Shown here piece after piece: positions 24,245-34,093 of a DNA stretch of 64,000 bases. How positions within the stretch are numbered: the first letter of the stretch is position 1; each line of letters starts with the position of its first letter. The position numbers and the translations under genes were made by a program. This stretch comes from Natronobacterium gregoryi SP2 (lineage in GTDB: Archaea > Halobacteriota > Halobacteria > Halobacteriales > Natrialbaceae): NCBI RefSeq assembly GCF_000230715.2, contig NC_019792.1:930001-994000 (forward strand), in the 5' to 3' direction. The notes below the pieces were generated by a model, which was not told the origin of the DNA, made no database searches, and saw only the letters and a list, made by a program, of their open reading frames with translations.

Positions 24245-24580
24245 TCAGTTACCACGACCGGCGCTGTGGATCTGTTCCACCTTGGCTTCGATGTGAACCG
24301 AGTCCGGGAAATTCTGTTCGGCGATGTTGCGCGCGAGATTGTCGTGGCCGTGAATCTCGAGTTCGCGGGTGAAGACAGTGTAATTCCAAGAAGAGAAGTG
24401 TCGGTCGTCGTCGGCGTGTAGCCGACACCGCTGTGGGACCGAGATGTCGGTCGGCGGATGGGAGTGTGGTCCTTTCAGTTCCGCGCCTTTCCGTTCGGCG
24501 GTCGTTTTGATGTCGTCGACGATACCGTCGAGAGCGGCGCGGTCGCCGCTCTGGAGCGTGAGACGGGTGACAAAGGTCAT
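24245..24580 (-). CDS. Ribosomal protein S10-like (uS10/mL48 family) paralogue
   Basis: 111 residues. The order FVTRLTLQSGDRAALDGIVDDIKTTAE, then KGPHSHPPTD and SWNYTVFTRELEIHG matches the uS10 fold, including the loop that reads GPxPLPT in true S10. It is distinct from the canonical S10, which in archaea lies in the EF-1A operon, so this is a stand-alone paralogue that may bind RNA or the ribosome. Single gene between repeats and a Nudix gene. Confidence 0.75.
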   Translation of the reverse strand: MTFVTRLTLQSGDRAALDGIVDDIKTTAERKGAELKGPHSHPPTDISVPQRCRLHADDDRHFSSWNYTVFTRELEIHGHDNLARNIAEQNFPDSVHIEAKVEQIHSAGRGN

Positions 24581-24712: not shown

Positions 24713-25147
24713 ATGGCAGTCGAAGCTACGAGCGCAGGCGCGATCCTCTTCCGCGACACGCGGGGCCGGCGCGAGTATCTTCTACTCAAGAGCCGCCCAG
24801 GCGACTGGGAGTTTCCCAAGGGCGGTGTCGAAGGAGATGAAGAGCTACAACAGACGGCGATCCGCGAAGTAAAGGAAGAGGCAGGTATCGAAGAGTTCCG
24901 GCTACTCGACGGCTTTCGCGAAGACTACAACTACGTCTTCGAGGCGAACGGCAAGACGATCCACAAGACCGTTCACCTCTTCATCGCGAAATCCTACGAG
25001 GCCAGTGCAGAACTCTCTAACGAACATCGCGACCTACAGTGGCGCGATTACGAACAGGCAGTAAACACCGTCACCCAGGACGGTCCACGCGAAATTCTCG
25101 AGCAGGCCCACGAGTTCCTCGACGAGCGCGAAGAGGACGAAGAGTAG
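24713..25147 (+). CDS. Nudix hydrolase, Ap4A hydrolase-like
   Basis: 144 residues. Complete Nudix box GGVEGDEELQQTAIREVKEEAGI (G-x5-E-x7-RE-x2-EE-x-G), in positions ~40-62. The N-terminus (SAGAILFRDTRGRREYLLLKS) and short length match bis(5'-nucleosyl)-tetraphosphatases, which cleave Ap4A and related alarmones. Acidic C-terminal tail. Promoter-like ATTCTCTTAACG lies upstream of ATG 24713. Confidence 0.88.
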   Translation: MAVEATSAGAILFRDTRGRREYLLLKSRPGDWEFPKGGVEGDEELQQTAIREVKEEAGIEEFRLLDGFREDYNYVFEANGKTIHKTVHLFIAKSYEASAELSNEHRDLQWRDYEQAVNTVTQDGPREILEQAHEFLDEREEDEE

Positions 25148-26004: not shown

Positions 26005-27069
26005 ATGACAGCCGTGAGCCGGTACACCGCCGAATTCGGGTTCGAGCTACGAACCTGCTGGTGGGCGGAACGGGAGTGGCCGCCCGAAGAGACGACGGAG
26101 TCGACCGTCTTCGTCGCCCGACAGCTCGGCACCGGACGCCGGCGCTGGGACACGATCGTCCTCGAGTGCGACCCCGACGCCCTCCGCCAGCGCGCGACGT
26201 TCGGTCCGGATCGACTCGACGGCGACCTCCTGCACGTCGTCCGAAACGCGCCCGCGGAGTGGACCTACTACCGCGACGCCCTCCCGGACCCGGGCTACCC
26301 GTGGCGCTACGTCCGCGAATCGATCCACCGCGCCGACGACCGCGGGATTCTCGAGACGCACAAGGAGGGCAACCGCATCCAGATTCGTCGCAAGTGGCCC
26401 TATCCCGACTGGCTCGAGCGGATCGTCGCCATCGAGAACAAGCCCGACCTCGACCGGTCTGCGGCCCGGCGACTCGGGACACAACTCGAGTACGACGTCG
26501 CAATCGGGCTGGCCGACGAGGTCTGGGTCGCGACCCGGACGACAGGTGAGTCGGTCGAACCCGTCCTGCTCGAGGACCTGCCGGTCGAGGCGGGCGTGCT
26601 GGCGTTCGATCCCGAGACGCTCGAGACCGAGGTCGCCTGGTACCCTCGCACGCTCGCGGTCGAGGAGCCGGGAACGCGCATCCTCGAGCGACCTGACGGT
26701 GGCTCTCGCGATGGGTCGGCAGCACGCTTCGAGTACGTCGATCCCGAGTGGAAGGCAGAACGACGGCTCGCGATCGCCGAACGCGCCTACGAACGGGGCT
26801 GGCGATCGTTCGCCGACACGATGCGGCCCGATTGTCGACACTTCCAGCTTCGCGAACAAGACGGGCAGTTACTCCCTTACTGCGGGGCGAAGGACCACCA
26901 GCCGACCGCACGCGAGTGTTCCGGCGACTGTCCCGACTACGAGCCCGAACCACCCGCGTGGCGGACGAAGGGGTGGCCGATCGAGGGTGGGCCCGGAAAG
27001 CGATTCAAAAAGCTGCTCGCGGATCGTCGACGGCGACGGCGGCCAGGTCTGGATTCGACGAGCGGCTGA
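26005..27069 (+). CDS. DUF5787-type protein, candidate PD-(D/E)XK nuclease with cysteine cluster
   Basis: 354 residues. A RecB/Cas4-like nuclease pattern is visible: Asp135, then Glu144-x-Lys146 in IVAIENKP, then Gln160-x2-Tyr163 (GTQLEY) on the following helix. Cys18 near the N-terminus plus C-terminal Cys277, Cys293, Cys305 and Cys309 could bind an Fe-S cluster or zinc, as in Cas4/AddB (one N-terminal plus three C-terminal Cys). The very C-terminus is basic (RFKKLLADRRRRRR), suited to nucleic acid. Nuclease function is inference. Confidence 0.65.
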   Translation: MTAVSRYTAEFGFELRTCWWAEREWPPEETTESTVFVARQLGTGRRRWDTIVLECDPDALRQRATFGPDRLDGDLLHVVRNAPAEWTYYRDALPDPGYPWRYVRESIHRADDRGILETHKEGNRIQIRRKWPYPDWLERIVAIENKPDLDRSAARRLGTQLEYDVAIGLADEVWVATRTTGESVEPVLLEDLPVEAGVLAFDPETLETEVAWYPRTLAVEEPGTRILERPDGGSRDGSAARFEYVDPEWKAERRLAIAERAYERGWRSFADTMRPDCRHFQLREQDGQLLPYCGAKDHQPTARECSGDCPDYEPEPPAWRTKGWPIEGGPGKRFKKLLADRRRRRRPGLDSTSG

Positions 27070-29295: not shown

Positions 29296-29805
29296 TCAGT
29301 CGGTGACGTCGACCTCGAGGTCCTCGCGCTCGACTGCCAGTCGGAACGTGGGAACGGTGCGGTACTCTACCTCGACGACGTCCTTTCGCCGGAGTCGCTG
29401 GAGGCCGGAGCGGACGTCCTCGGCCTCTAAGTCGTCACCGTAGTCGTAGGCCTCCCGCAGCGAGTGCAGGACCGAAACGACGCTCTCGGACTCCTCGTCG
29501 GGGCCGGCGAGCACCTCGACGATGCGGGCCTGCAGTTCTGGGACGCGGATGCGCGACGGCGCACCCTCTTCGTCGGGGTCGCTCTCGATTCCTGGCTCGA
29601 CGTCGACGAGGTCGGCTGCCTCGGCCGTCGCGCGAATCAGGCTGTTGTCGTCCCGAAAGTAGTAGTCGCCGAGTTCGTTCTCTAAGTACTGATGGACCTC
29701 GCTACCGCTTTCCATCCCCCATCGTTCCTGTAGGTCGGCGTTTTTCGTCGGCTGTAGTTCCACCACGTCCGCCAGCCGTTCCGTGGCCTCGTCCGAAAGC
29801 GTCAT
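29296..29805 (-). CDS. DUF5797-type protein (probable winged helix)
   Basis: 169 residues, acidic. An N-terminal HTH-like part (ADVVELQPTKNADLQERWGMESGSEVHQYLENEL) resembles a winged helix; a second helical part ends in RSGLQRLRRKDVVEVEYRTVPTFRLAVER. Haloarchaea-specific family of unknown function. Single gene next to an IS remnant. Confidence 0.65.
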   Translation of the reverse strand: MTLSDEATERLADVVELQPTKNADLQERWGMESGSEVHQYLENELGDYYFRDDNSLIRATAEAADLVDVEPGIESDPDEEGAPSRIRVPELQARIVEVLAGPDEESESVVSVLHSLREAYDYGDDLEAEDVRSGLQRLRRKDVVEVEYRTVPTFRLAVEREDLEVDVTD

Positions 29806-31391: not shown

Positions 31392-32687
31392 TTAGTCATC
31401 ACCGACGACCGGCACCGGTGCGGTGGTCTCGAGCGTCTCCTCGACTTGGGTGTAGACGAGGATCGCACCAACTGCAGCGACGACGGTCCCGAAGAGAAAC
31501 GGCACCGCGAACCCGTAGCCGATCAGCGCACCGGAAGAAAGTGGTCCGATGGCGATTCCAAAGCCAAAGGCCATCGTCAGCACGGAGAGCTTCGAACCGG
31601 ATTCGCCCTCACCAGCGAGGTCACCAGCAAGTGCGAGCGAGGGTGCAAACACCATCGCACCGGCAACTCCCTGGACCAACCGTGCGAGAAACATCGTCTC
31701 CGAGGTAGGGACGAACCCCTGAGCGAGCGTCGAGGGAATCAAAAGCACCATCCCGCCGACGATGAACGGGCGGCGACCATAGCGGTCGCAGGCCCGTCCG
31801 ATCGGCGTCTGCAACAGGATCTGGGCGACGACGAATCCCGCGAACTGCAGGCCAAACCAGGTCGCCCCCTGGCCGAGTCGCTCGTTGACCTGGGGCTGGA
31901 TCGTCGCAAACAGCGCGATCGCAGTCGCCATGAACAGCGAGGCGACGCCGAGCGTGAAGATCGGATCGAACAGGTTCGACCCCGATCGATCGAAGACGTC
32001 GATCGAGAGGTCTGCACCCGCGTTGGCTCGAGTCGACTCGGGGTCGGTGATCAGCACGGTTACCAGCAGGTAGCTGAGCGTAGCCGCCGCAGTCGCGACG
32101 TAGAACGCGGCGTCGTAGCCTGTTACCGTCGCCCCACCCGGCAGCGTATAGGGGCCGAGGTTGACAACCGCGCCAGCCGCAACCGGACCCGCACCGAACC
32201 CGATGAGTCGGAACGTGTTGTAGACGCCCATGTTCCCGCCGCGGTTGCCCGTTGTCGCGAGTTCGTTGACCAGCGCGACCGACGCCGGGATGATGAACGC
32301 GACGCTAATTCCCTGCAACCCACGGATGACGACGAGATGGGTGTACGTCTCTGCGAACACGTACGTCAGGTTCGTGACCGCCAGCCCCGCAAGACCGATC
32401 AGGATAAACCGTCTTCGCTGCCCGAACCGATCCGAGAGACGGCCCGTCAGCGGCTGGAAACTACTGTTGAGAAACCCGAACAACGAGAGGATGACTCCGA
32501 TGATCATCGCCTCCTCGAGTCCGAACGTCGCGCCGCCGATGATGTCGCTGCCGACGTACAGCGGGATGACGACGATCAGAAACGAGTTGCCGATCCCGTC
32601 GGCCATCCGTGCAAACGCGAGCGCGAGCACTCGTCGGTCGACGGCGAACAACGCGAGAACTCTCTCGAGGAGGGTTCGTACTGGCAC
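31392..32687 (-). CDS. Major facilitator superfamily transporter
   Basis: 431 residues from a GTG at 32687 (VPVRTLLERVLALFAVDRR); a TATA-like ACTATAACG (32715-32721) lies ~30 nt upstream, supporting this start. About 12 membrane segments. The loop 2-3 motif GRLSDRFGQRRRF and the symmetrical GRACDRYGRRPF in the second half are classical MFS signatures; the type resembles multidrug/sugar-efflux DHA1 members. The ISH8-like element begins ~85 bp upstream and its transposase frame runs into this gene's 5' end. Confidence 0.87.
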   Translation of the reverse strand: MPVRTLLERVLALFAVDRRVLALAFARMADGIGNSFLIVVIPLYVGSDIIGGATFGLEEAMIIGVILSLFGFLNSSFQPLTGRLSDRFGQRRRFILIGLAGLAVTNLTYVFAETYTHLVVIRGLQGISVAFIIPASVALVNELATTGNRGGNMGVYNTFRLIGFGAGPVAAGAVVNLGPYTLPGGATVTGYDAAFYVATAAATLSYLLVTVLITDPESTRANAGADLSIDVFDRSGSNLFDPIFTLGVASLFMATAIALFATIQPQVNERLGQGATWFGLQFAGFVVAQILLQTPIGRACDRYGRRPFIVGGMVLLIPSTLAQGFVPTSETMFLARLVQGVAGAMVFAPSLALAGDLAGEGESGSKLSVLTMAFGFGIAIGPLSSGALIGYGFAVPFLFGTVVAAVGAILVYTQVEETLETTAPVPVVGDD

Positions 32688-34093
32688 TCGTGAGAAGCCA
32701 GTGTTGGCGACGCCGTTATAGTTTCGAATCGAAGTACTCTGGAAGCACCCTTGGAGCACTCCCGAATCACCAGACTATTCGTCTTTAGATAAGATCCACA
32801 CCTCGGTTGTGTAGCGGTAACGAGCGTCTCTTGTAACACTGGCCGTTGCTGGTGGATCTTCTGTGCGTCGTCGATCAGTCGGTCGAGCAGCGGTGGCGGC
32901 GAGTAGCCGAGATGTTCGCCAAGTTCGTGGAGGATGAGCTGGGCGTGCGACCGAAAGGTCGCCGCCCAGCGTTCCGGCGGGAACACGATCTCGTCGTCCA
33001 CCTGTTCGGTGACCAGATCGAGCAATTCACGACTCACGAGCAGTGACAGCAACGCCGCGTACAGCAGAATTTCGACAACATGCTTCTTCGTCGTGTCGAA
33101 CTCGTCCAATTCGTATTGCGTCTTCAACTCACGGAATAGCAACTCCACCTCCCACCGACACCGATAGATCGTCCCTAGATCCGACGGCAAGAACTCGTCT
33201 CTCGGGAGATTCGTGATGTACAGGTGGTAGTCGTCGGCGTCCTCTTTCCGGACGCCGACGACGCGAAACCGCTTCGTATGGCGTGACTGCGTTCCGCCGT
33301 ACGGTCTTCGGTCGAACTCGGCTTCGACTTCCACGTCGATGTACTCGCGGTGCAGATCATCCACAACATCGTGGATCTGCTCACCTTCCAAGGGAATGGC
33401 GCGGCCGCGCCATTCCCGTGATTCCTCCGTTACGACCGGATTTGCGCTCTCTTTCAGCCGACTCACGAAGTAGCCGTCGTTCTCATCGATCAACGCGAAG
33501 CGGCGGTACTTGAGGTAGGCTCGGTCGAACAGAACGAGCCGATCTTCGAGCCACGATCCTGTGTGAAACAACGTGCTGTCGTGCGTTTTCTCGTCAGTCA
33601 CGTCGAGCCATTCTATCGTCTGGTCGGTGGCATTATGGAGCAGGTGGAGCTTCGCTCCAGCCTGCTCCTCCTTGCGAGCTTCGTACTCATCGGCAAGGAA
33701 CTCGTGCAACCGCAGGACGGTTCCATCAGCAATCATCACGTCCTTGAATCGGTCGATATCGGCGTCAACAGTGTCAGGGACAGCGACCTCGTCGAGGCCA
33801 CGCTCGACGAGGTCGCGGAAGTACTCTGCGGGAGACGGCGTCAACCGGTGATAGAAGCCGCCGGGAGAGATCGTCTCATCAGCTGTCGAGTTGTAGCTGC
33901 GTCTGAAGCCAGCGAGTGTTCGGCTTTCGCCTGCGGCGAAGCCGAACACGAATGCCCAGACGAAGGCAGGGATCTGGAGCTTGCGGTCACGTTCGACCAC
34001 GCCGAGTTCCTCGGCGTGCTCTTCGAGGAACTCAGAGGGAAACAGTGTAGTGAGCCGACGCATAATCCGAGATGAGGAGGCATTGGTGGACAC
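32576..34093 (-). CDS. IS4-family (ISH8-type) transposase with read-through C-terminus
   Basis: 505 residues from a GTG at 34093 preceded by a strong Shine-Dalgarno-like GAGGAGG 8 nt away; an ATG at 34063 (MRRLTTLFPSEFLEE) is the alternative. DDE residues: first Asp in MIADGTVLRL, second in LVLFDRAYLKY, and the Y-x2-R-x3-E-x6-K signature YRCRWEVELLFRELK. There is no stop before the left terminal repeat: the frame leaves the element and continues ~65 codons into the MFS gene's 5' region, giving an unrelated tail. Possibly still active. Confidence 0.85.
   Translation of the reverse strand: MSTNASSSRIMRRLTTLFPSEFLEEHAEELGVVERDRKLQIPAFVWAFVFGFAAGESRTLAGFRRSYNSTADETISPGGFYHRLTPSPAEYFRDLVERGLDEVAVPDTVDADIDRFKDVMIADGTVLRLHEFLADEYEARKEEQAGAKLHLLHNATDQTIEWLDVTDEKTHDSTLFHTGSWLEDRLVLFDRAYLKYRRFALIDENDGYFVSRLKESANPVVTEESREWRGRAIPLEGEQIHDVVDDLHREYIDVEVEAEFDRRPYGGTQSRHTKRFRVVGVRKEDADDYHLYITNLPRDEFLPSDLGTIYRCRWEVELLFRELKTQYELDEFDTTKKHVVEILLYAALLSLLVSRELLDLVTEQVDDEIVFPPERWAATFRSHAQLILHELGEHLGYSPPPLLDRLIDDAQKIHQQRPVLQETLVTATQPRCGSYLKTNSLVIRECSKGASRVLRFETITASPTLASHECQYEPSSREFSRCSPSTDECSRSRLHGWPTGSATRF

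Follow-up and report, generated by a model that had tools for sequence, protein, structure and literature searches.

DUF5787, a near-universal pair of haloarchaeal paralogues with a candidate PD-(D/E)XK-like active site and, in one paralogue, a C-terminal PCNA-binding motif

Nucleases of the PD-(D/E)XK fold are built on a four-stranded mixed sheet between helices; they frequently contain inserted DNA-binding subdomains, and members of the superfamily are difficult to detect with profiles (PMC1189080). In Cas4, an Fe-S staple is formed by one conserved N-terminal cysteine and three C-terminal cysteines (PMC3466216). NucS/EndoMS carries an N-terminal domain of Sm/OB-like fold and is treated, together with NreA/NreB and TIP, in a review of non-core archaeal PCNA partners that does not include DUF5787 (PMC4929162). 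A preliminary description of a 64,000-nucleotide stretch of the Natronobacterium gregoryi SP2 genome (the window) had proposed that a DUF5787 gene encodes a RecB/Cas4-type nuclease with a possible Fe-S cluster. Conservation across the family upheld one part of this proposal, a candidate PD-(D/E)XK-like site accompanied by a putative cysteine metal site; the likeness to Cas4/AddB failed in motifs, spacing and profiles.

The gene at 26005-27069 (+) is a genuine open reading frame according to the ORF list and its translation, and encodes 354 amino acids, the stop codon being included in the coordinates. A Pfam profile search assigned residues 37-314 of the product to DUF5787 (PF19100; E 1.5e-126, 422 bits against a cut-off of 25), which confirms the family named at the outset; the coordinates and all residues singled out earlier (E144-N-K146 after IVAI, Q160-L-E-Y163, C18, C277, C293, C305 and C309) were also found in place. 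NCBIfam contains no model for DUF5787, and no paper was found under that name. The family was present in 291 of the 294 haloarchaeal genomes sampled, almost always as two matches; the earlier statement that it is conserved in haloarchaea with no assigned function was therefore correct but understated. The three genomes without it (G021, G219 and G287) are all small, 1.9-2.3 Mb. Across 394 sampled genomes of the phylum no member was found beyond haloarchaea, and viral contigs yielded no relative either.

In a tree of 40 proteins drawn from shared genomes, the family splits into two groups, A and B, across a branch with 100/100 support. Mean identity is 67% within A, 58% within B and 33% between them. 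Judged from this separation and the low A-B identity, A and B are two old paralogues whose duplication predates the sampled haloarchaeal radiation. The product of 26005-27069 is paralogue A; paralogue B of the same genome lies outside the window, at about 2257001-2258140 (-) of contig G000:C1 (L002:1384-2367 (-)), and adjoins the aIF2-gamma gene.

The conservation counts come from 257 unique proteins, 180 of group A and 77 of group B; one A protein, L073, fell outside this set owing to a gap filter. Residues E10, E14, E22, R39, Q40, R46, D49, R63, Y133, W136, E144, N145, P147, Q160, D164, E259, G265, R267, C277, C293, C305 and C309 are identical in 257/257, and K146 in 256/257. The features of paralogue A, with secondary structure from the AlphaFold models discussed below, are as follows.

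26032..26070, + strand: N-terminal helix with E10, E14, C18 and E22 (model helix 10-24; conservation)
26107..26169, + strand: predicted beta hairpin, residues 35-55, with R39, Q40, R46 and D49 (strands 35-43 and 46-55 in both models)
26221..26391, + strand: inserted winged-helix domain, residues 73-129 (block pLDDT up to 94; Foldseek)
26401..26412, + strand: Y133-P-D-W136 motif, preceding the candidate catalytic strand (Y133 and W136 in 257/257)
26434..26442, + strand: E144-N-K146, candidate (D/E)XK half-motif after strand IVAI (conservation; strand 137-143)
26482..26496, + strand: Q160...D164 on the next helix (both in 257/257)
26743..26817, + strand: C-terminal helix with E259, R260 and G265, W266, R267 (model helix 247-271; E259, G265 and R267 in 257/257)
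26833..26931, + strand: four-cysteine module C277-x15-C293-x11-C305-x3-C309, putative Zn or Fe-S site (257/257)
26986..27042, + strand: basic tail GGPGKRFKKLLADRRRRRR, free of a PCNA-binding (PIP) motif (comparison of A tails)

Conservation of E144 and K146 had been offered as a check on the nuclease idea, and both residues passed it across the A and B proteins. Since merely 27 of the 347 alignment columns are strictly invariant and A-B identity is about 33%, their conservation is well beyond chance. The single exception at K146 is a paralogue B protein (L095) that has E-N-N where the others have E-N-K, possibly a natural inactive copy. D49, a candidate first catalytic acid, lies 95 residues before E144 and completes with it and K146 the set of conserved D...(D/E)XK residues. 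The persistence of D49, E144, K146 and Q160 across old paralogues, together with the predicted order of secondary structure, supports a PD-(D/E)XK-like active site. The preliminary description had also named a Q160-x2-Y163 pair. Q160 stood, being invariant; a tyrosine occupies position 163 in only 76/257 (69/180 in A, 7/77 in B), and it is the neighbouring D164 that never varies. Moreover, the spacing is QxxY rather than the QxxxY that follows E-x-K in the Cas4/AddB/RecB branch. Mean-field coevolution over the 257 sequences gave mostly noise and neither favoured nor disfavoured a D49-E144 strand pairing; the signals above noise were a hairpin-like V187-V198 pair and some winged-helix pairs.

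We predicted the fold of paralogue A with AlphaFold from an alignment of 69 A sequences (mean pLDDT 58, pTM 0.36) and again from 81 trimmed A sequences, which gave a worse model (mean pLDDT 48.7, pTM 0.27). As a check of the fold against PD-(D/E)XK, the prediction was confident for the winged helix alone: residues of about 81-130 were the most confident part of the first run, and the candidate catalytic core had low confidence in both models (block pLDDT about 30-45). Both low-pLDDT models nevertheless place the elements in one order, alpha-beta-beta(D49)-[winged helix]-beta(E144-N-K146)-alpha(Q160). In this order helix 10-24 is followed by strands 35-43 and 46-55, the second containing D49, by helices and the winged helix, and then by strand 137-143, E144-N-K146 and helix 151-169 with Q160 and D164; the last strand (176-180) appears in the first model and is missing from the second. 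The predicted order is consistent with a PD-(D/E)XK core that has a winged helix between its half-motifs. Foldseek ranked winged-helix proteins first, 1wq2 for example with an rmsd of 2.3 over 62 columns, all at E > 0.05; among the 50 matches listed there was no nuclease, the winged helix alone being matched. A sequence search of the PDB with an A+B profile found no match, the best hit being an unrelated hydrolase at E 2.

For comparison with known nucleases, we used fetched loci to build profiles of Cas4, PDDEXK_1, NucS, Hjc and Mrr and aligned these to DUF5787 with hhalign, unrelated families serving as controls. None of the five matched DUF5787 above the unrelated control families, and the probability against Cas4 and PDDEXK_1 was at most 0.3%. 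Positive controls paired Cas4 with PDDEXK_1 (82-87%), Hjc with Mrr (86%) and NucS with Mrr (60%), but the true pairs NucS-Cas4 and Hjc-Cas4 were missed too, at below 1%. As the controls also miss true pairs, these failed matches argue against close kinship with the tested branches and are silent on the PD-(D/E)XK superfamily as a whole. DUF5787 shares with Cas4, AddB and PDDEXK_1 (PF01930, PF12705) the E-x-K, a D before it and a Q after it, and a putative cysteine metal site. With Hjc and Mrr (PF01870, PF04471) it has in common the D and E-x-K of a PD-(D/E)XK core, a core that is only predicted for DUF5787, and yet it lacks a profile match to either, though the Hjc-Mrr pair itself was detected at 85.6%. 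The conserved glutamate on the first helix of Hjc may be a further likeness, as may one to MmcB (PF06319) around strand 4-5. NucS/EndoMS (PF01939) offers a model of how paralogue B may work; the two differ, NucS having the Sm/OB-like domain and DUF5787 a winged-helix insert plus four cysteines, and the NucS_C profile matched other loci of the same genome and none of the DUF5787 loci.

The cysteines had been likened to the one-plus-three layout of Cas4, a comparison that did not survive. The C terminus of Cas4 reads C-x2-C-x5-C in the alignment made here and is joined by an N-terminal cysteine, whereas DUF5787 has four invariant C-terminal cysteines of different spacing. C18 is kept in 250/257 sequences; serine or alanine replaces it in 7/77 B proteins, and serine in the A protein L073. 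The segment C277-RHFQLREQDGQLLPY-C293 gave a weak Pfam match to DUF7140 (PF23601; E 0.0014, below the cut-off), and the DUF7140 protein of the same genome (L404 1-1635 (+)), predicted to be a membrane protein, has CGNCRHFEYARSSSGIVPYCTLDGTAMDDMDDCQEWEP at its end. The two families have in common a C-RHF-x..-PYC-x11/12-C stretch; DUF7140 is a 42-residue motif, and the likeness is limited to the cysteine module. The four C-terminal cysteines of DUF5787 thus appear to resemble a free-standing haloarchaeal module. Because these four suffice, C18 is dispensable and the DUF7140 likeness exists, a self-contained Zn or Fe-S site seems the better reading, and an Fe-S staple of the Cas4 type is improbable.

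The core clients of PCNA are the polymerases, RFC, FEN1 and RNase H2. Haloferax volcanii is one of the chief model organisms in archaeal replication and repair, and few proteins are recognised as its PCNA partners (PMC7776575, PMC4929162). The PIP rule in this species is QxxLxxFx (PMC7776575). All 77 paralogue B proteins end in a PIP motif, QxxhxxF/Y/W (71 with F, 4 with Y and 2 with W), which occurs in 0/180 A proteins and, as a chance background, in 2/424 C termini of neighbouring ORFs. In the genome studied here, paralogue B ends in RRQSGLDRFGG and FEN1 in VTQTGLDRWT; this motif (QSGLDRFGG vs QTGLDRWT) is the sole feature that the two proteins share. Paralogue B very probably binds PCNA through it. 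The motif, which lies outside the window, is to our reading of the sequences the strongest functional clue to DUF5787, and lends independent support to the DNA-processing role suggested at the outset. Since the window gene has no PIP motif, its role may differ from that of paralogue B.

A nuclease function is rather probable on these sequence features. Against it weigh the low model confidence in the candidate core, the lack of a PDB match, the lack of profile similarity to the five nuclease families in a test that also misses some true pairs, the 95-residue separation of D49 and E144 and the one E-N-N protein. We lean towards DUF5787 being a family of PD-(D/E)XK-type nucleases, dependent on metal and confined to haloarchaea, with two paralogues of which B would be tethered to the clamp by its PIP motif. 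The core would run from a helix through a strand and a second strand with D49 to the winged helix, and on through the strand with E144-N-K146 and the helix with Q160 and D164 to a last strand. D49 and E144 would hold Mg2+, K146 would assist phosphodiester hydrolysis, and the winged helix would serve to hold duplex DNA, with the four-cysteine C-terminal module as a structural Zn or Fe-S site. The C-terminal PIP motif may bring paralogue B to replication or repair sites via PCNA, and paralogue A, which has a basic tail in its place, would work without docking directly on the clamp; fork DNA that is branched or damaged is the probable substrate. That the winged helix between half-motifs marks an unrecognised PD-(D/E)XK branch, represented by a near-universal pair with B tethered at forks and A free, strikes us as evenly balanced between right and wrong. 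If the nuclease reading is true, the DUF5787 pair would be an overlooked core genome-maintenance factor in almost every haloarchaeon, and paralogue B would be an addition to the PCNA interactome of haloarchaea.

The same residues could also be read without catalysis. DUF5787 would then be a PCNA-linked, metal-binding winged-helix protein, a DNA-binding protein or adaptor without nuclease activity, in which E-N-K and D49 are structural or have a binding partner that is not a catalytic metal. The winged helix is indeed the only confidently modelled domain, and PCNA partners not known as enzymes exist, TIP among them (reviewed in PMC4929162); however, invariant E, D, E-x-K, Q, D and R in old paralogues are characteristic of active sites and seldom seen in proteins that only bind, and we regard this reading as unlikely, though not negligible. 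Descent from the Cas4/AddB line, as a RecB-type exonuclease whose four-cysteine Fe-S staple links C18 to the C-terminal cysteines, is highly improbable. It would account for the E-x-K, the downstream Q and the combination of one N-terminal with several C-terminal cysteines, but four C-terminal cysteines are enough for one site, and the kinship was rejected on the absence of QxxxY, the cysteine layout, the dispensable C18 and the lack of any profile match where Cas4 and PDDEXK_1 find each other.

A further reading is a metal-dependent RNase or a tRNA/rRNA-processing enzyme of the same fold, with RNA a conceivable substrate above all for paralogue A; it draws on the missing clamp motif of A and on translation and transcription genes nearby. 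In the window, a small protein matching ribosomal protein S10 is encoded at 24245-24580 (-) (E 1.6e-14), as is the case near paralogue A in 10/21 genomes, and a class II tRNA synthetase-like gene is also close; across genomes, A neighbours include transcription- and tRNA-related genes. These neighbours are too loosely conserved to count as partners, the best recurrences being NUDIX and DUF5797 genes in 13/21 A neighbourhoods, and the PIP motif of paralogue B points to DNA; an RNA-directed enzyme is thus quite unlikely, less so than a Cas4/AddB relative. No clear functional partner emerged from the neighbourhoods compared, 21 for A and those of B, where aIF2-gamma and a metallo-beta-lactamase-fold gene occur in about half. 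The window copies of the recurrent A neighbours are at 24713-25147 (+) for the NUDIX protein and 29296-29805 (-) for the DUF5797 protein. DUF5797 itself has a weak profile likeness to DUF5787 (7%, 51 columns), perhaps via the winged helix. Further along, an insertion-element DDE transposase is encoded at 32576-34093 (-) (E 9.9e-28).
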